Below are positions 2,175 through 19,092 of a stretch of 20,408 nucleotides of DNA, one piece after another. The translations under genes and the position numbers were made by a program. This DNA is from a virus. The stretch's first letter is position 1, and each line of letters starts with the position of its first letter. Location of the stretch: positions 1-20,408 of the IMG/VR virus record IMGVR_UViG_3300025133_000745. One strand, written 5' to 3'. The notes beneath the pieces were generated by a model. That model was not told the origin of the DNA, ran no database searches, and saw only the letters and a list, made by a program, of their open reading frames with translations.

Positions 2175-2778
2175 AGAATATCCGTGGAGTGTCCTTACCA
2201 AGGAGCATGAATTTCCGCTGGTTAAGGATAAGGCTTCGTATGATCTGCCGGACGATTTCGGGCGCTTTATAAACGGCACCATGTGGGATCGGGTGGAATC
2301 GCGTCCAATCGAGCGTGTCGCGCCACATATCTGGCAGGAATTTAAAAGCGGGTTAGTCAAAACCGCTGTATATCGACGCTGGCGTGTGAAAGGTGTGGAA
2401 GGCACTAAAGAGCTTTTCATAGACAGCACCCCAAGTACGACACAATGCGAATATGAATGCCGTGATGGAACCAAAGTGCGTCTGGGCGTTGCGTTTGAAT
2501 ATATATCAAATGAGTGGGCGGCAAGTACGACGGGCAATCCAAAGACAAACTTTACGGCTGATACGGATACTTTTTCGCTGGATGACTCGCTGTTGGAATT
2601 AAATATTAAATGGCGTTGGCTGAACGCACTAAACCAGACTTATGTTGAAGAAAAAAATGAATTTGATCGTTACCTGTCGATTGCAAAAGCGCAGGATGGT
2701 GGTGCCGGTGTATTAAGGGCGGATCATGGGCAGGCTTTCCGTTATCCGAATATTCCGGAGAGCGGCATTGGTCTCTAG
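2035..2778 (+). CDS. Head-tail adaptor protein (T7 gp11 / tail tubular A-like position)
   Basis: 247 residues. The N-terminus M-A-T-I-L-S-I-C-Q-G-V, followed by GFPSPSTLVGN and A-x3-A-K-R-L-A-E-E-Y-P-W, is typical of podovirus connector/adaptor proteins that sit below the portal and join it to the tail nozzle. The family-like N-terminus fixes the start at the TTG at 2035. A GGAGAG Shine-Dalgarno at 2024-2029 lies exactly five bases upstream. The next in-frame ATG (2068) would remove the conserved helix. It overlaps the preceding gene by 140 bases, unusually long even for a phage. The gene immediately downstream is the nozzle-like protein, matching the gp11-gp12 order. The family call rests on sequence pattern and synteny; direct homology to T7 gp11 is not claimed. 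Confidence 0.72.
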   Translation: MATILSICQGVMEETGFPSPSTLVGNNGQDARTILRLAKTSAKRLAEEYPWSVLTKEHEFPLVKDKASYDLPDDFGRFINGTMWDRVESRPIERVAPHIWQEFKSGLVKTAVYRRWRVKGVEGTKELFIDSTPSTTQCEYECRDGTKVRLGVAFEYISNEWAASTTGNPKTNFTADTDTFSLDDSLLELNIKWRWLNALNQTYVEEKNEFDRYLSIAKAQDGGAGVLRADHGQAFRYPNIPESGIGL

Positions 2779-4270
2779 GGCGGCTCTGGCAAGAGAGCGA
2801 TATCGTAGTTCGTATAGGGGTTCAACGCCTGCTCCTATCGGCGGCTGGAATACCCGCGATGACCTTGCAAACATGCCTCGCGCTGATGCAGCGGTGTTTG
2901 ACAACTGGTTACCGGACACAAACGCGGTGCGCCTGCGAAAGGGGTATCAGCAGTTCTGTACTGGCGTGGGTAGCGGAAATGTAGAAACCCTCCAGTCACA
3001 TGTCACAACCTCAGGAACAGACAAGCTTCTGGCCTGTGGTGGTGGACGCATATATGACATTACCAGTGGTAGTGCAACATCGCTTGCTACCGGCTTTGCC
3101 AGTAATCGGTGGGACACAGTCGATTTCAATCGAGGGGTGGTGTTCTGTAATGGCGCAGACCAACCGCAGATTTACGATGGTAGTACAGTTTCCGCCGCTT
3201 CATTTGTTGGCGGTGATATCTCACATGATCGTTTTTTCTCTGTGCATGTATTCAAAAACAGGGTCTATTACGCAGCCAAAGATGAACTGGCCTTCTGGTA
3301 TACCGAGCTTTTTGCTTCTACCGGAACTGTCACAAAATTTCCTTTAACAGGAATTGCCGAAAGGGGTGGTAGCGTTGTTTCAATCAATTCATGGACAGTT
3401 GATGGCGGCAGCGGACCAGATGACTTTCTGGCTGTCTTCACCTCAGAAGGTGAGGTGCTGGTGTATCAGGGAAGTGATCCTGGTGATGACTTTGCCATTG
3501 TTGGAAGATTTTATGTCGGACCTATCGTGGATAATCGGGCTATCGCCCCGATCTACGGCAAGCTTTTTGTGGTTACTAACCGAGATTACATATACGCACC
3601 TGACCAGTTTATAACACAGGGTGGCGGCAGGGACTCAAAGCTAAGTGGTGCTGCAAGGGATGCACTTGCGTTGTATTCGGGTTTCGCTGGGTGGCAGGCT
3701 CATTACTCTCCTAATGAAGGGTTAATGATTGTTAATGTGCCAACGGGCGAAAGCACTTCGGTGCAGCATGTTACGAATGTCAGGACCGGAGCAGCTACCC
3801 GTTTCACCAACCTGAATGCAATGGTGTTTGGTGAATTCAACAACAAACTGTATTTCGGTGGCACGGGTGGAAAGGTTTATCGCTACAGCGGAACGACAGA
3901 TGACGGTAGTGCAATTACAGCAATTGCGAAAACCGCACCAACGATTTTAAGAAGCAATTCCGAAAAGCGGGTGTCAGCGTATCGCCCACGTTTAATCAGC
4001 GTCGGCAATGTGACCGCTGTGAGTGGGCTTGCATATGACTTCCATCCTGTTGCATTCAAGCAATCAATTAGCTTGAGCGCAACTTCAGGAACGGTGCTGC
4101 CAGCTGACTGGCCTTTTGATTGGGCATCGGAAGACACAACAAGAGAAGAATGGATGAGGGGCGCAGGACGAGGCACTTTTGTGCAATTGTTTTTACAGGT
4201 CAGTTCAACTGTTGATGTTGACTGGTTAGGCACCGATTTCATATCAGAACCAGGAGGCATTCTGAGGTGA
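2768..4270 (+). CDS. Tail nozzle-like structural protein (T7 gp12 / tail tubular B-like position)
   Basis: About 500 residues, rich in Gly, Ser, Thr and aromatic residues, with many short beta-strand-like repeats and no obvious catalytic motif. The APIGGWNTRD...DNWLPDTNAVRLRKGY block near the N-terminus is a hallmark of a widespread phage structural family encoded after the adaptor; a beta-propeller nozzle role is inferred. I place the start at the TTG at 2768 because GGAGAG at 2757-2762 precedes it by exactly five bases, the same arrangement as three other genes here, leaving an 11-base overlap with the adaptor. An in-frame ATG at 2726 with AAGGG at 2714-2718 is a possible alternative giving 514 residues. 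The stop overlaps the next GTG start (GTGA). Confidence 0.75.
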   Translation: MVSRAALARERYRSSYRGSTPAPIGGWNTRDDLANMPRADAAVFDNWLPDTNAVRLRKGYQQFCTGVGSGNVETLQSHVTTSGTDKLLACGGGRIYDITSGSATSLATGFASNRWDTVDFNRGVVFCNGADQPQIYDGSTVSAASFVGGDISHDRFFSVHVFKNRVYYAAKDELAFWYTELFASTGTVTKFPLTGIAERGGSVVSINSWTVDGGSGPDDFLAVFTSEGEVLVYQGSDPGDDFAIVGRFYVGPIVDNRAIAPIYGKLFVVTNRDYIYAPDQFITQGGGRDSKLSGAARDALALYSGFAGWQAHYSPNEGLMIVNVPTGESTSVQHVTNVRTGAATRFTNLNAMVFGEFNNKLYFGGTGGKVYRYSGTTDDGSAITAIAKTAPTILRSNSEKRVSAYRPRLISVGNVTAVSGLAYDFHPVAFKQSISLSATSGTVLPADWPFDWASEDTTREEWMRGAGRGTFVQLFLQVSSTVDVDWLGTDFISEPGGILR

Positions 4271-7645: not shown

Positions 7646-10539
7646 GCGATAATTTAACCCTGCAGCAGCTAAGGGATATCCAAGCAGACCAACAAGTTGT
7701 CGGAAAAGATGAGACTTCTATACAACCGCTGCAAGCGTTACGGGAAAATCAGGCTGGACTAAAGGTTGGCACGGGGGGTGATAGCGGCTTACAGCAAGAC
7801 ATTGCTTTCCGCAACCAACCTTGGGCGGTAAGAAATATAGCTGATCCCATTAATAGGGCTGCGGTTGATCTTTATGATCTTCCAAACGTCGCTACTAATG
7901 CCGCTTTGGGAGCGATGGGTACTGATAAACGAATTACTACCGTTAAAGAGAGTCTTCAAAGCAGCGGCCTTATGGCTCCGGAAGGGCAGGAAGAAGAGGG
8001 CTTTTTTCCAAGAATGATGTATTTAACGCCGTTGGTGGTTGCCGGTGAAACCGCATTAATTCGGCATGGGGCGCGGTATGCGGCAGGAAGTTTTTCATTA
8101 ATCAATGAATCTTCCGGTGCAATTATGAACGCCATTCGTACCGCAGCAAAACACACGGCTGACAAACCCCTCCAGTCCTCTGCTATTGCAGGCGTTTCGA
8201 CTGCAGGGGCCGCAGGCGCACATACGGTGGCTTCTGAGCATATCGTTAGCCCAGCCTGGATTGCGGTCTGGGAAATGATTGGAGCCTTTACCGCACCAGT
8301 TGCAGCGTGGGGTTTAACCATGCCATTACTCCGAAATGTGATGGGAAAAATTTCAGAGCATGTGACCCCCTTCTTAAAGGGAGGTGCTGAAATGAGGGCG
8401 GCTAAACGCCTGCAAGAAGGAGTGGGTGACAAAGACGCGGCGCTGTCTGGGGTAGAAACTTATGGGGGGCCGATTGAAGGTGTCCCTGGTAGTAGGGGCC
8501 TGCCTGTTGGAAGAGCTTCTGATGATGAATTTTTAAGGGCCTTAGAAAACCGGTTGCTTAGCAAAGACCCAGAGATAGCTGCGGCTGCAAGTAAAGATCT
8601 TGATGCTGAAATAGATCGTATTTTTTCAGCTATGGGTAATTTTGACGGGAATACCGCAACAGTTAGGGAGTTGTTGGAGGGTCACCGTGATCATATTTTG
8701 CGCACCTTGGAGCTTAAAGCCCAACACGCAGGAAAGCAGTCAGCGGAAGACATGGAAGGATTATTCAATAATCCTGATATCGATGTTAATAATATACGCA
8801 CACGGGAGATAAGTGTCGTTGCAGCTAAAAGCTTAGACGATGCGTATAAGACAGCTAGGGCAACAGAAAGAAGGATGTGGCGCGCTCTAGAAGACTCACC
8901 AACATATATGAACACGCCTGTAGAGGTTACTCATGGCACGGCTACTGTCCGAGGATTGAGGGCCGATATTGCCAAAACAGAAAAAGAAGACCTTATTCCA
9001 GATTATATTCTCAAGTGGCTTGATCCGGATGCTGTTCCGCCGGAAGTCAAAGCTCAGTTGGAAAAGGCTGGATTTCTGGATAGTGATGGAAATGTTCCGG
9101 AGGCGCTTCTTGCACAGATGATAGATGAGGGGGCGATAACCCCAGTGGAGCTTAGTTTTAGGGACGTAAGTCGCTTGAGGAGCAGGATTCTGACGGATAT
9201 AAGGCATATTCGTGCGCAACCAGGGCATGACAGGAATCAGGTAAGAATCCTCAAGGAAATAGCCAATGGTAATCCGGAGACAGGCGCAAAAGGTTTGGTT
9301 GATGATCTGGACCAAGCCAATTTAGAGGGCGCTCGTACCGCTGCAGAATATTCCCGCAGATTAAATGAAATGTTCACTCAGGGCGCTGTCGGTCAATTGT
9401 TACGATTCGAGAAAACAGGGGCAAGGTCTTTTGATCCAGCTGACACTCTGAGCGCGATAGTTTTCGGGAATAAAAGAGCCACTAACATAAAGTCGCTTAT
9501 CGATGCGCAGCCCAATGTGCAGCCGGAAATTGAGGATTTCATTACCGCCAAATATGTGCAGGCGGCAATGGAAAACGGAGTCATTAATCAGGGCAGGCAC
9601 GATAGGTTTATAAGGCAATTGGTCAATAATGAAGTTGATCAGGTATTACCGAAGCTTATTGAAAAATTTGAGCTTGCTAAAAGATCAGCTGATGTGGCAA
9701 AGGCCATGCAGGATAACCTTGCAGCCGGTTATGTCCCCGAAAATGGCGGTAAATCTGTTGCGTCCCTTTACCTTAATGCTCCGGTGGGGCAGGAAATAGA
9801 GGGGATTTTAACAGGTGCAACGACTAATCTTTTTGCAGAAGGGGCGGCATTGCGCTCTATGATGAACGGAGATGAGTTAGCCATACAGGGCCTAAAAACT
9901 GAATACGTTGAGTATTTGCTTAAAACCGCAACTATGAATGCTGGGGTGAGAGTAACACCCAGTGGAACCACTGAGCAGGTATTTGACCTGCGCGTTGTCA
10001 ATAACCTCATAAAAAACATGCATGGCAACCAAAAGTTTGAGCAAGGTCTTGGTTTCACTGCGGATGAATCCAAAAGAATACGAATAATGGCTGAAGCACT
10101 GAGAAGGGCAACAACGCCGCTAAAGGGAGAAGAACACCTTTACAGGGATATGCCAGCTGCGTTGGTGCAAGTGATGGCAAGAATATCTGGTGCCACGATG
10201 GGTGGCAGAGCAGGGTCTGGCCCAGGAACGCCACTTGTGCTTGCACATGAAGGCTCAAAACGAATGCAAAGGGTCATTTCTGGCCTGACTCAGTCAAGAG
10301 CGAGGAATCTTCTTTCGGAAGCAATGCAGGATAGGGAGCTTTTTCAGGCATTAATGGGCAAGCGCAGCGCCGCTTTACCTGAGCAAATACGCAACGCAAA
10401 TATAATTGCAGGGTGGGTGCGGAAGCAAACTTCGGTTACCTTGCCGGTTCTTGCTGCGCAAAGTCAGGATATAGCAGGGGCTGGTCCAGGATGGTCAGCG
10501 AGACCCGATCAGGCACAACAAGAAGTAGCAATTAATTAA
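7642..10539 (+). CDS. Large internal virion / DNA-ejection protein candidate (T7 gp16-like position)
   Basis: 965 residues, the longest gene in the window. The N-terminal region is polar and Gln/Asp-rich. Hydrophobic, Ala/Gly-rich stretches near 125-150 and especially 203-230 could enter a membrane. The rest (about 240-965) is long, mostly alpha-helical and charged, with Ala/Glu/Lys/Arg-rich segments. This layout resembles large ejection proteins of short-tailed phages. No lytic transglycosylase motif like that at the N-terminus of T7 gp16 is visible, so cell-wall digestion would need another protein. The GTG start overlaps the previous stop (GTGA) and follows AAGGA. The role is inferred from length, composition and position before the tail fibre. 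Confidence 0.65.
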   Translation: MSDNLTLQQLRDIQADQQVVGKDETSIQPLQALRENQAGLKVGTGGDSGLQQDIAFRNQPWAVRNIADPINRAAVDLYDLPNVATNAALGAMGTDKRITTVKESLQSSGLMAPEGQEEEGFFPRMMYLTPLVVAGETALIRHGARYAAGSFSLINESSGAIMNAIRTAAKHTADKPLQSSAIAGVSTAGAAGAHTVASEHIVSPAWIAVWEMIGAFTAPVAAWGLTMPLLRNVMGKISEHVTPFLKGGAEMRAAKRLQEGVGDKDAALSGVETYGGPIEGVPGSRGLPVGRASDDEFLRALENRLLSKDPEIAAAASKDLDAEIDRIFSAMGNFDGNTATVRELLEGHRDHILRTLELKAQHAGKQSAEDMEGLFNNPDIDVNNIRTREISVVAAKSLDDAYKTARATERRMWRALEDSPTYMNTPVEVTHGTATVRGLRADIAKTEKEDLIPDYILKWLDPDAVPPEVKAQLEKAGFLDSDGNVPEALLAQMIDEGAITPVELSFRDVSRLRSRILTDIRHIRAQPGHDRNQVRILKEIANGNPETGAKGLVDDLDQANLEGARTAAEYSRRLNEMFTQGAVGQLLRFEKTGARSFDPADTLSAIVFGNKRATNIKSLIDAQPNVQPEIEDFITAKYVQAAMENGVINQGRHDRFIRQLVNNEVDQVLPKLIEKFELAKRSADVAKAMQDNLAAGYVPENGGKSVASLYLNAPVGQEIEGILTGATTNLFAEGAALRSMMNGDELAIQGLKTEYVEYLLKTATMNAGVRVTPSGTTEQVFDLRVVNNLIKNMHGNQKFEQGLGFTADESKRIRIMAEALRRATTPLKGEEHLYRDMPAALVQVMARISGATMGGRAGSGPGTPLVLAHEGSKRMQRVISGLTQSRARNLLSEAMQDRELFQALMGKRSAALPEQIRNANIIAGWVRKQTSVTLPVLAAQSQDIAGAGPGWSARPDQAQQEVAIN

Positions 10540-14273: not shown

Positions 14274-15236
14274 TCACATCCGCAGAAAAGTTAGCTTCTT
14301 TCGATTCGTCAATTTCTCAACTTTGCTTTCAAGCAGATAAACATCTTGTTGGGTGTAATTATTCCAGATGTCTGTCCCGTGATGACCAGCTAAAGCATCG
14401 GTGATTCTTTTTTCATATACCCCATGCGCAGCCAGCCTTGAAATGAAAGTATGGCGCAGATTGTGAATCCCTGTCCTCTGCCATTCGCCGGACGGTAGTC
14501 CTGCGTTTTTCCAGCATGCCGAAAACAGTTTCCATGTTTTCCCAAGCTTCCCGCCCCTGTTGCTTGCGCACCTGCTCGGAAAAATGTAACGACTGCCATT
14601 GTTTCTTTCGTAATCGACTGCTTCCTTTGCAAGCGAGTTCAGGATGACAGCCCTTGGCTTTACAACCTCCTTGGACTTCCCATATGCGATTATCACATAA
14701 GTCGAGTATGGATCGTGAAATTCTCGGATATCGGTCCATTTCATGCCGGTGACCTCCTGTTCACGCACCCCCGCGTTAATCGCAAATTTGCAGAGACCCT
14801 TGCGCCAGTGTTCAGGCAGGGCAGCAAAAAGTTGGTCTTCCTCTTCATATGTCAGTGCAATCGATTGTTTTTTCATTCCCCTAGGTCGCTCAAAATATGG
14901 TGTCTGAGGAATCCAGCGCCAATGCTTGCTCGCTCGATTCATTACTGCCGCTAGGTATCCCACGCGTTGGTTCACAGTTCCTGCCGTGCGTTGACCTTTA
15001 CCATCATCAAATAAGCCGCGCCCTTGCAGGTAGTCGCTTCTCCATTCGGAGATAGCACCATCGTCAACTTCAATGATGGGCATATCGCCAAAATAATGGC
15101 ACATACCCGCCAAAATATTTGCGACAGCATCTGCATCTTTGCCTGTAAACTCATCCAGATATCGTTGCGCCGCCTCGCCAAAGGGGCGCATTGCATCTCT
15201 TTCCATTTTTTTAAAGATCGATATTGATTGGTTCAT
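14274..15236 (-). CDS. int: Tyrosine-family phage integrase
   Basis: 320 residues from ATG 15236. It catalyses site-specific recombination between phage and host attachment sites through a 3'-phosphotyrosine intermediate. Numbered from an upstream in-frame TTG (15257), the catalytic set is Arg165 (NAGVREQEV), Lys195 or nearby (GKSKEVV), H265-x2-R268 (HNLRHT), His292 (LAGHH) and the nucleophile Tyr301 (WNNYTQ). The N-terminal part (about 20-120) looks like a SAM-like core-binding domain. I prefer ATG 15236 because AGGAG lies nine bases upstream and the ATG overlaps the previous stop (ATGA). It is the last gene of the leftward unit, next to the putative attP. No excisionase is recognised upstream. 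Confidence 0.95.
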   Translation of the reverse strand: MNQSISIFKKMERDAMRPFGEAAQRYLDEFTGKDADAVANILAGMCHYFGDMPIIEVDDGAISEWRSDYLQGRGLFDDGKGQRTAGTVNQRVGYLAAVMNRASKHWRWIPQTPYFERPRGMKKQSIALTYEEEDQLFAALPEHWRKGLCKFAINAGVREQEVTGMKWTDIREFHDPYSTYVIIAYGKSKEVVKPRAVILNSLAKEAVDYERNNGSRYIFPSRCASNRGGKLGKTWKLFSACWKNAGLPSGEWQRTGIHNLRHTFISRLAAHGVYEKRITDALAGHHGTDIWNNYTQQDVYLLESKVEKLTNRKKLTFLRM

Positions 15237-15553
15237 TTTGATAAACTCCTGAACCAATTCGCACTACCATCCTGCTCTTTTTGCTGATTTTTTTCAATCA
15301 CTTCTAGTTTTTCCTTTACCTGTATTAGCGTTCCTTTGATGTTAATAAAGGTCCGCCAATAGTCATCCGACTTGGTGTCATCTTCTACCTGGTTGTCTTT
15401 ATATTTAGCCATGTCTGCTTTCGCAGCACTGAGCGTCACCCGCGCTTTTATCTCTCGCCAGTGCGGGTTGTTTTGATGTTTTTTAACAAACAAACGCTCT
15501 GCATGATCCACCAAAAGACGAACCTCATCTGAGAAATTCATTTTTTTTGTCAT
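15233..15553 (-). CDS. Hypothetical helical protein
   Basis: 106 residues, very rich in Lys, Asp, Glu and Gln, predicted almost wholly helical with a possible coiled coil near 70-95 (INIKGTLIQVKEKLEVIEKNQ). No domain recognised. ATG 15553 has GGAGA about eight bases upstream and overlaps the preceding gene's stop (ATGA); its own stop overlaps the int ATG the same way, so it is translationally coupled to integrase. Position immediately upstream of int is where an excisionase often lies, but the sequence does not look like a winged-helix Xis. Confidence 0.65.
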   Translation of the reverse strand: MTKKMNFSDEVRLLVDHAERLFVKKHQNNPHWREIKARVTLSAAKADMAKYKDNQVEDDTKSDDYWRTFINIKGTLIQVKEKLEVIEKNQQKEQDGSANWFRSLSK

Positions 15554-16639: not shown

Positions 16640-17314
16640 TTAAGCTTTTAAAATATTCTGAACCCATTCTTTTTCTTTCTTACGAGCGAATACGGTTTTA
16701 AACCGATTCTTGTGGGTCGGATGGTCAGTTTGATTTCGGCGCAAAAAATCCAGCGTCGTGTTTACACCGCTCGCTTCCATCTTTGCAATCTGTTTCTCGT
16801 GCCGTTTAGTTTCCTCGTGCAAAAAATTGTGCCGCCTGCTGGCGGTGATACCGTTCGCTGTAATGCAAGTGTTAATGTAAAAATCGGCAACCGCATGTAT
16901 GAATTTCGACGTTACGCTAAAATATTTCCGCCGCTTGTCAGTTCGTTTGGGTCCTTCGGAACAGCATCCGGTGGCTTTTTTTATCATTCCAGCGTCTTGC
17001 AACTCCGCGAAACAACGATCCATGTAACTGCGGTGCCATGAGTGATCAGGCCATCTGCGTTTCATACCATCCAGGGCATCGATGGCGGTAAACCGCCCCT
17101 CTGGCTCATTATCGCCAACCACCCTGTTTTTCAAGCTCTCTAGGGCGTAATAGTGTAGAAATCCCATGACCATGAACTTTTTAAAGGAAATGTCTCCGTA
17201 AGTTTCAAAGCTCCACTCTATCGTACATTTAATTGAAAGGGACATTGAATCAATGTTCCACACATGATCTTCCATTTGCGCAAGCGTTTTTAATTTAGCC
17301 CCTATCGTAGGCAC
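16640..17314 (-). CDS. Putative winged-helix DNA-binding protein, function unknown
   Basis: 224 residues. Residues about 80-135 have the order helix (AIDALDGMKRRWP), helix-turn-helix (SWHRSYMDRCFAELQDAGMIKK) and a basic beta-wing (PKRTDKRRKYFSVT), like MarR-type winged helices. The rest is basic, with a Lys/Arg-rich C-terminus (NRFKTVFARKKEKEW). This suggests an early regulator or DNA-binding replication factor, but no named family is recognised. The GTG start at 17314 follows AGGGA and is overlapped by the TAG of a possible small upstream ORF (TAGTG). An in-frame ATG at 17275 is an alternative. Confidence 0.6.
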   Translation of the reverse strand: MPTIGAKLKTLAQMEDHVWNIDSMSLSIKCTIEWSFETYGDISFKKFMVMGFLHYYALESLKNRVVGDNEPEGRFTAIDALDGMKRRWPDHSWHRSYMDRCFAELQDAGMIKKATGCCSEGPKRTDKRRKYFSVTSKFIHAVADFYINTCITANGITASRRHNFLHEETKRHEKQIAKMEASGVNTTLDFLRRNQTDHPTHKNRFKTVFARKKEKEWVQNILKA

Positions 17315-17430
17315 TATTTTTTCCCTAAGTTGTTGTTACTTTCATTTTTTTCCGCAAATTGGTCAGCACCGTGAATACTAATTTTAAAGCAATTTGTATC
17401 TTGAATACGATTTTCGTATATTCGGGCCAT
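17314..17430 (-). CDS. Possible 38-residue ORF coupled to the downstream gene
   Basis: ATG 17430 to TAG 17314-17316. The product begins MARIYENRIQD and ends in a Asn/Lys-rich tail (ESNNNLGKK); no domain. Its stop overlaps the GTG of the next gene by one base (TAGTG), the same style as other junctions in this leftward cluster. There is no clear Shine-Dalgarno, and a promoter-like -10 lies only 13 bases before the ATG, so translation would be near-leaderless. It may instead be an untranslated leader. Confidence 0.35.
   Translation of the reverse strand: MARIYENRIQDTNCFKISIHGADQFAEKNESNNNLGKK
17405..17419. promoter_or_regulatory. Palindrome, possible operator or leader hairpin
   Basis: ATACGA-TTT-TCGTAT, perfect six-base arms with a three-base centre, located in the leader of the leftward unit just downstream of a promoter-like sequence. 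It could bind a dimeric regulator or fold as a small RNA hairpin. Confidence 0.4.
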
Positions 17431-17566: not shown

Positions 17567-17815
17567 ATGCTAAGCCCCCTAAGCAAATGTCAAATGAACG
17601 AAAATAACTTCTTTCGCAAAATAACAATTGCCAGTGAGGAAAACAAAATTCCTAAGCAGGTGCTTTTAATGTGCATAATGCTGAGCAACGAACAAGAAAC
17701 CATTGACTGGCTGCACGAAATAGGTTTGGGAGAATTGCTGGCAAAGCGAGAAGAGTTAATTAGCCTGATGGGCAGCTGGCCCCTTTTTACTCAGACTCCA
17801 CAATTTTTAGAATAA
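17567..17815 (+). CDS. Small hypothetical protein opposite the repressor 3' end
   Basis: 82 residues, helical, with hydrophobic segments (QVLLMCIML near 31-39) interrupted by charged residues; no transmembrane helix is convincing and no family is recognised. It starts at ATG 17567 behind an A/G-rich but weak Shine-Dalgarno (AAGAAAG); ATG 17594 is an alternative. Its last 29 bases overlap the 3' end of the repressor gene on the other strand. A TATAAG hexamer about 45 bases upstream could be a -10. Confidence 0.5.
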   Translation: MLSPLSKCQMNENNFFRKITIASEENKIPKQVLLMCIMLSNEQETIDWLHEIGLGELLAKREELISLMGSWPLFTQTPQFLE

Positions 17816-18197
17816 TTTCGAGCCGCTCATCCGACAGGTTGGGCAGGGCATCCAGAATTCTTTCAGCTTCCGGTGACAAATTTTCGCTAGGGCGCTTCGG
17901 GCCTTTTCCGGTCCATAACCATTCAAGCGAATATCCGCTTAGCTCTGCTATCGATTGCATCTTTTCCATGTCGGGAAGATAGCGTCCACTTTTCCATCCG
18001 CCGATGGAGGCAGCCGTGATCCCAAGCTTGTCTGCCAGACCCTTTTTTGACCCGTGTCCCTTTAGACCCATCGCTGCCATTGCGTCTTCAATGCGCAACC
18101 AGCGCTCTGCGGCCTGATCCCGACGCGCTTCTTTGGTTTTGGCTTTTGCCTGGTGGTGCTTACGAAGCACCTCGGATTTGTATTTATTTTGATTCAT
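17787..18197 (-). CDS. CI-like phage repressor, short form with XRE-type HTH
   Basis: 136 residues. A basic N-terminal arm (about 1-30, KHHQAKAKTKEARRDQ) precedes an XRE-family helix-turn-helix at about 48-98 (SKKGLADKLGITAASIGGW, then a scaffold helix and LEWLWTGKGP). A short acidic C-terminus (about 105-136) is probably for dimerisation. There is no S24/LexA-like peptidase domain, so RecA-stimulated self-cleavage is not expected. It is transcribed divergently from the replication genes, the usual position of the lysogeny repressor. ATG 18197 lacks a Shine-Dalgarno, and a -10-like TATACT lies about 29 bases upstream, inside the shared operator; the poor -35 suggests an activator-dependent maintenance promoter. 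Confidence 0.8.
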   Translation of the reverse strand: MNQNKYKSEVLRKHHQAKAKTKEARRDQAAERWLRIEDAMAAMGLKGHGSKKGLADKLGITAASIGGWKSGRYLPDMEKMQSIAELSGYSLEWLWTGKGPKRPSENLSPEAERILDALPNLSDERLEIILKIVESE

Positions 18198-18211: not shown

Positions 18212-18239
18212 TTGATAATACCGTTAGTATAACTATAAT
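18212..18239 (+). promoter_or_regulatory. Strong early rightward promoter (PR-like)
   Basis: TTGATA (18212-18217) and TATAAT (18234-18239) separated by 16 bases, a near-consensus sigma-70 promoter. It points to the replication genes, with a start expected near 18246. The operator-like element occupies the spacer and -10, so bound repressor would block polymerase. Confidence 0.75.
18223..18238. promoter_or_regulatory. Repressor operator candidate overlapping both divergent promoters
   Basis: TAGTATAACTATAA at 18225-18238, preceded by CGT, is shared in 12 of 14 bases with 16592-16605. TAGT and ACTA form a short dyad. The minus-strand -10-like TATACT (18226-18231) for the repressor gene and the plus-strand TATAAT both overlap it. 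Confidence 0.6.
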
Positions 18240-18298
18240 TTGTCATATGGATTTTAGTCGTTTACCTAATGTTCGGTTGTTAAAAGTGTTCCATTTTC

Positions 18299-18341
18299 AC
18301 TGCCTCTTTTCTCTTAAAAAGGAAGGGAGGCAGTTTTTTTT
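18299..18341 (+). terminator. Intrinsic terminator in the leader of the replication operon
   Basis: ACTGCCTC (18299-18306) pairs perfectly with GAGGCAGT (18327-18334) around a 20-base loop, followed by a run of eight T (18334-18341). It lies about 55 bases after the expected rightward start and about 60 bases before the first replication gene. Confidence 0.8.
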
Positions 18342-18353
18342 ACGCCTGCAAAA

Positions 18354-18401
18354 ATGAATCTACACTACATTCAAGGCCACATGCAAATGTTTGAAACATA
18401 A
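18354..18401 (+). CDS. Possible 15-codon leader peptide
   Basis: ATG 18354 to TAA 18401, ending one base before the replication gene ATG at 18403. That gene has no Shine-Dalgarno of its own, so re-initiation after this short ORF is conceivable. The leader ORF also lacks a Shine-Dalgarno; weak support. Confidence 0.25.
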   Translation: MNLHYIQGHMQMFET

Positions 18402-18402
18402 A

Positions 18403-19092
18403 ATGAAATGGTTTAAGCATCCCAGCGACGCGAATATGAACTACAAGCTTCGGAAAATGAAGCTGAAATATGGCATGGAGGGGTACGGCCTGTATTGGCA
18501 TTGCCTTGAGCTTATAGCCGCTGGCGTAGACAAAGACAACATCACTTTTGTACTAGAACATGACTCGGAAATCATTGCACACGACACAGGGCTGCATATA
18601 GAGCGCGTCGAGGAAATGATTGTATACATGGAAAAGACAGGGCTTTTCAGCATTGAAAACGGCAAAGTGGTGTGCATCAGCATGGCAAAAATGGTTGATG
18701 AATATATTAACAAAATACTGCGGGACCCCAAGGTTATAAAGGCTGTCCTGACACACTCCGGACACTCTCCGGACAAAGTCCCTCCTAAGAGAAGAGAACA
18801 GAAAAGAAAAAAACAGATTAAAAAGAAGAGGGGCGCTAAACGCGCACCACAGGATTTCCAAGTGACGATCCAGATGTACGGATGGGCCGAAGAAGAACTT
18901 GGCATGGCAGCAACCGTGGTGGACCAGCATACCAAGGAATTTAAGGACCACGAGTTCAAGGATGCGAAAACCGCTTGGGAGAGTGCCTGGAGAAATTGGC
19001 TGCGGCGTTCATCCAGATTTGCTCCAAAGCGTTTGAATCAAAGTACAGACAGTTATCACGCAGAACTGGAGAGACAGCTTGGCGGTGATTAA
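18403..19092 (+). CDS. Phage replication initiator-like protein, DUF4373 N-terminal domain
   Basis: 229 residues from ATG 18403. The N-terminus M-K-W-F-K-H-P-S-D-A-N-M, then KLRKMKLKYGMEGYGLYWHCLELIA, is the hallmark of the DUF4373 (Lin1244/Lin1753-like) domain found in phage replication initiators/helicase-loading organisers. A very basic linker (about 125-148, RREQKRKKQIKKKRG) and a C-terminal helical domain with W-x3-W-x2-W-L-R-R-like spacing (AWESAWRNWLRRS) follow. It is expected to bind the phage origin, often located within such a gene. I choose ATG 18403 because homologues begin MKWFKH; a TTG at 18391 is in frame. It precedes a lambda P-like gene, mirroring the O-P order. Confidence 0.82.
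   Translation: MKWFKHPSDANMNYKLRKMKLKYGMEGYGLYWHCLELIAAGVDKDNITFVLEHDSEIIAHDTGLHIERVEEMIVYMEKTGLFSIENGKVVCISMAKMVDEYINKILRDPKVIKAVLTHSGHSPDKVPPKRREQKRKKQIKKKRGAKRAPQDFQVTIQMYGWAEEELGMAATVVDQHTKEFKDHEFKDAKTAWESAWRNWLRRSSRFAPKRLNQSTDSYHAELERQLGGD

Follow-up and report, generated by a model that had tools for sequence, protein, structure and literature searches.

The region between the repressor gene and the replication genes of this temperate phage carries a strong intrinsic terminator in the leader of the early transcript. Our preferred reading of the sequence, to which we give a probability of roughly 0.6, is a leader terminator (attenuator) that belongs to an early promoter under repressor control and restricts how much transcription enters the replication operon. 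The promoter, the terminator, the order of the genes with no cro among them, a chain of reading frames running on to the next large gene, and the recurrence of such terminators in relatives can all be read directly from the DNA. In the window, by which we mean the whole stretch analysed (the 20.4-kb fragment that makes up positions 1-20,408 of IMG/VR record IMGVR_UViG_3300025133_000745), the element is ordinary in form and a known kind of control point. The more interesting part is that a leader-terminator site recurs before DUF4373 genes, and that the RNAs there include at least one family with covariation that lies outside Rfam.

The window runs through tail and lysis-type genes and then a leftward block with an integrase gene (14274-15257) at its end, and its source is a temperate phage. 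The early operon is truncated because the record covers a fragment. The gene for a CI-type repressor is divergent from the replication operon, with the first replication gene, rep, to its right and no cro-size gene between the two. The features of the control region are the following:

17787 to 18197, minus strand: CI-type repressor gene, 136 aa (Pfam Phage_CI_repr 1.7e-7 and HTH_3 3.6e-7; PHROG transcriptional repressors)
18212 to 18239, plus strand: early promoter, TTGATA-16-TATAAT, 11 of 12 consensus positions
18218 to 18230, no strand: operator-like palindrome ATACCGTTAGTAT (ATAC-N5-GTAT) inside the promoter, from a pattern scan of the window
17405 to 17419, no strand: operator-like palindrome ATACGATTTTCGTAT (ATAC-N7-GTAT) in the leftward control region, from the same scan

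The near-consensus promoter that had been proposed ahead of the stem is borne out, and the transcript is predicted to start at 18245-18247. The window holds only one other ATAC...GTAT site, at 9903, and the palindromes in both control regions are likely sites for the repressor. An 82-aa rightward ORF (17567-17815) with no family match is convergent with the repressor gene and overlaps its end, and a short terminator-like hairpin lies where the ORF itself ends.

Downstream of the promoter the leader has two features:

18299 to 18341, plus strand: intrinsic terminator with a 14-pair stem (8 perfect), a loop of 8 and T8, from folding and a scan of both strands
18245 to 18341, plus strand: predicted terminated leader RNA of about 95-97 nt, its start and end taken from the promoter and the terminator

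The stem (ACTGCCTC/GAGGCAGT) has eight perfect outer pairs, as originally described together with a run of eight T, but the helix is longer, being extended to 14 pairs by A-U and G-U pairs. The hairpin (18299-18334) has a dG of -20.4 kcal/mol and lies about 50 nt past the promoter; the first of the eight T (18334-18341) closes the stem, leaving seven unpaired. The fold of 18246-18342 has a z-score of -3.95, with no shuffled sequence equally stable. When both strands of the whole window were scanned for terminators with a dG of -15 kcal/mol or lower and at least 7 T in 8, this was the sole match in 20.4 kb, compared to 0.36 such terminators per shuffled window at -15 and 0.04 at -20. The hairpin with its T run is real and not a product of chance. 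The expectation that most transcripts would end near 18341, giving an RNA of about 95 bases, is well supported at the level of sequence. The 5' part of the leader (18245-18298) folds weakly, at -6.6 kcal/mol, and is nearly unstructured; the only complementary segments inside the leader are the terminator arms, and its longest complement to the terminator loop is five A-U pairs. Scanned against Rfam, the window gave nothing credible at either gathering or relaxed thresholds, leader included. The exact stem-plus-T pattern had three matches in viral contigs, all of them unrelated terminators elsewhere.

The gene that lies beyond the terminator is described by two features:

18403 to 19092, plus strand: rep, encoding a DUF4373/Lin1244_N protein (Pfam Lin1244_N 5.2e-7; phrog_20981 1.7e-31)
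18744 to 18827, plus strand: iteron-like TCCGGACA repeats followed by an A-rich (A/G-rich) stretch inside rep, marked by DNA conservation

The rep product is likely the replication initiator, and the start of its gene is kept in all aligned relatives. The internal stretch is conserved as DNA (73-85%) in relatives whose protein is poorly conserved there, and such conservation is found in many DUF4373 genes, so that it looks like a candidate replication origin inside the initiator gene. As an attenuator, the element would work as follows. Once the repressor is off, RNA polymerase would start at about 18245-18247, most polymerases would stop near 18341 and release the RNA of about 95 nt, and a minority would continue into rep and the genes beyond. 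Since most polymerases would stop at the terminator, basal expression of the replication operon would be capped. If the candidate origin is real, the terminator would also cap transcription through it, and read-through would then matter twice, for initiator synthesis and for origin transcription.

How polymerases might pass the stem can be weighed from the same data. The original prediction held that read-through needs an antiterminator or a leader switch, which claims too much, as leaky termination or translation through the stem is equally open. We would rank an unrecognised phage antiterminator as the most probable route, followed by plain leakiness, translation of a short leader ORF and lastly RNA-based control. 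A processive antiterminator of the phage (N-, Q- or put-like), which would modify RNA polymerase at the promoter or leader and leave only the unmodified enzyme subject to the terminator, is possible as an explanation of the whole element, although we consider it the less probable one. Lambda tR1 and PR'-tR' are arranged in the same way, as promoter, short leader, strong terminator and operon, and several early proteins match no family, the 224-aa protein at 16640-17314 among them. Against this, no N, Q or other antiterminator family was recognised in the 20.4-kb fragment with its truncated early operon, even at relaxed thresholds, which agrees with the earlier statement that no N-like protein is recognised. 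Additionally, the Rfam scan found nothing in the leader, and its weakly folding 5' part is unlike the two-hairpin put RNA (PMC9378689). A search for boxA/boxB-like conservation had been suggested; a boxA-like TCTCTTAAAA does occur (18309-18318), but it sits inside the terminator stem-loop with no boxB after it, and the leader is not conserved in relatives.

We searched for relatives with an alignment of nine rep proteins and obtained 80 viral and 16 bacterial loci. DNA similarity to the window starts only at 18398-18403, and hence none of the relatives found conserves the window leader. Nevertheless, 7 of 90 distinct loci (the window and L029, L063, L070, L079, L086 and L097) have a strong terminator in the 110 nt upstream of rep, where 0.21 would be expected from the terminator rate in the rest of the same loci. 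This makes the position before rep a recurrent control point, though most of the enrichment comes from a single related group and therefore from few independent events. In the six loci of that group the terminator lies about 100 nt after a promoter-like site, as it does in the window. In the closest relatives by rep (L013 and L093), genes separate the control region from rep, and such a terminator is absent. Single-protein patterns for rep, cI and a NinB-like protein found no close relatives in viral contigs. The tail protein at 2726-4270 is identical in two IMG/VR contigs (L002 and L003) and 57% identical in a third (L004); all three are short contigs, L002 and L003 being too short to reach the early region, and none gave a DNA match to it.

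The six loci share a leader RNA, which we call R1, and further loci were found by pattern. Our alignment of it (A3) holds 23 distinct sequences from metagenomic phages, 16 in addition to these seven named copies:

L070, 3884 to 3989; L063, 3884 to 3989; L079, 3883 to 3989; L086, 3300 to 3405
L076, 1253 to 1358; L097, 3885 to 3987; L029, 1481 to 1582

R1 is about 106 nt long and in most copies begins 6-7 nt after a -10-like site. It consists of AGUGGYAU, a long hairpin with the loop GGACAAG, AUGCC..UGGU, an 18-pair terminator with the loop CUUGUCC, and U8, and the 7-nt loop of the first hairpin is complementary to the terminator loop. The structure, loop-loop pairs included, forms in 96.2% of the cells for the 23 distinct sequences, and 18 pairs have changes on both sides, compared to 5.0 in shuffles and 1-5 when the alignment is slid. 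The loop pair itself covaries (GGACAAG/CUUGUCC, GGUCAAG/CUUGACC and GGACUAG/CUAGUCC, and shifted by one column GAGCAG/CUGCUC). Some copies lie directly before rep, others before another early gene. Searches of Rfam at gathering scores gave no match and only weak ones below, and the candidate assignment to freshwater-2 was rejected at 19.3 bits against a cut-off of 49.9, mostly from the common GGAGAAAACAAATG end. A blastn search of annotated phages found no match, an R1 model compared to parts of HK022 and P4 gave nothing credible, and a limited literature search found no description of the RNA. R1 is apparently an undescribed folded RNA.

The window and the R1 loci are alike in having, before rep, a promoter-like site, a leader of about 100 nt and a terminator, but the covarying hairpin whose loop pairs with the terminator loop belongs to R1. 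Nowhere in the window does the R1 covariance model score better than in the leader, but the 14.1 bits there (E 0.042) compare with 78-125 for members, and a coding sequence of L156 reaches 14.1 bits by chance as well. We rejected the leader as a member on this score and on the lack of any leader partner for the terminator loop longer than the five A-U pairs. Four other loci (L020, L052, L060 and L062) show hairpins and runs rich in U close to the start codon of rep or of the first early gene; their leaders do not match R1 and are possibly further leader types. One speculative extension, which we regard as unlikely, is that DUF4373 replication operons form a class under leader-RNA control, in which leader RNAs of different kinds, R1 being one, lie at the start of the transcript and determine whether transcription yields a short RNA or continues into the initiator gene with its internal origin. 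In that case the window would be a second type, acting via a leaderless peptide ORF or an unrecognised RNA. If the attenuator reading of the window is true, entry into phage replication would be set by leader termination together with the repressor, without an intervening cro. Relatives have a covarying RNA outside Rfam at this very position, and so one can test directly whether RNA controls phage replication operons.

Two short reading frames join the leader of the window to rep:

18247 to 18357, plus strand: 36-codon ORF with putative translation, beginning at the predicted 5' end of the transcript and spanning the stem
18354 to 18401, plus strand: 15-codon ORF (ORF15) with an ATGA overlap with the 36-codon ORF and putative coupling

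The first of these was overlooked in the original prediction, which did describe the second as a bridge from the leader to the initiator gene and correctly gave the latter as having no Shine-Dalgarno. The stop of ORF15 lies one base ahead of the rep ATG at 18403 (TAA-A-ATG), and the reading chain is continuous from 18247 to 18403. With no Shine-Dalgarno of its own before that ATG, and joined to the leader through ORF15, rep fits a read-through mRNA. One could propose that the element is governed by translation, with ribosomes loading at the AUG at 18247, translating the 36 codons, blocking the stem and reinitiating at ORF15 and rep. The continuous chain and the missing Shine-Dalgarno argue for this, as does the finding that only 2.6% of leader shuffles have a start codon there and a frame open past the T run. 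The last is a post hoc figure, and given the ATG the frame stays open by chance in 21%. Moreover, the 36-codon ORF is kept in no relative, and ribosomes would have to load at a leaderless end and have translated about 13 codons by the time polymerase leaves the T run. We find this account rather improbable, while the 36-codon ORF could still aid read-through, for which the evidence is suggestive but post hoc.

It is more doubtful still that the short RNA is itself the regulator, either in the manner of IsrK, on the read-through transcript from its own promoter, or in that of P4 CI, as an immunity RNA. Gifsy-1 IsrK has a similar layout (PMC4825925), and the R1 relatives do have loop-loop pairing between leader and terminator. 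In the window, though, the leader pairs with any transcript no better than a shuffled leader does, its pairing with the downstream RNA (-28.7 kcal/mol) is equalled by 6.5% of shuffles, and its complement to the terminator loop is the short one given above. The P4-type immunity that had been suggested is not upheld, with a protein repressor gene adjoining, an operator-like site in the promoter, and no seqA/seqB/seqC-like pairing or other target found. Least probable of all is a terminator that serves only to insulate from upstream transcription, with rep driven from past the stem. The rightward gene at 17567-17815 does point at the region and a weak TTTACG-16-TACACT (8/12, about 18339-18366) can be read by eye, but the 11/12 promoter lies between and would be wasted, and the promoter scan lists none after the stem, in keeping with the original placement of the main replication promoter ahead of it.

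An attenuator of the early operon can be compared with several known systems. P4 immunity uses antisense pairing (seqA/seqB/seqC). P4 and the window would share the control of replication genes by premature leader termination, but the window has a protein repressor and no seqA/seqB/seqC pairing was found in it. With lambda PR-tR1 (N/nut) it shares a repressor-controlled rightward early promoter and a stop signal before replication genes, but the window has no cro before the terminator, and neither a nut site nor N was found. N proteins are hard to recognise. Lambda PR'-tR' (6S RNA, Q) is alike in its strong promoter, short leader RNA, strong terminator and long operon, and unlike in that it serves late genes, whereas the window has early genes beside the repressor and no recognised Q. 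The put RNA of HK022 is about 70 nt with two stem-loops that act on polymerase (PMC9378689); what it has in common with the window is an early transcript whose leader RNA may play a part in read-through, but the window leader is nearly unstructured before the terminator and lacks two stable stem-loops. By anatomy, the closest of the known systems is Gifsy-1 IsrK: from one prophage promoter come a short RNA that ends at an intrinsic terminator and, by partial read-through, a longer mRNA, with a small upstream ORF coupled by AUGA (PMC4825925). There the short RNA has a proven pairing with its read-through mRNA and controls an antirepressor (PMC4825925), whereas the window concerns a replication gene, and no significant pairing was found in it. 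What the two appear to share, in anatomy only, is the terminated short RNA, the read-through layout and the coupled upstream ORF.
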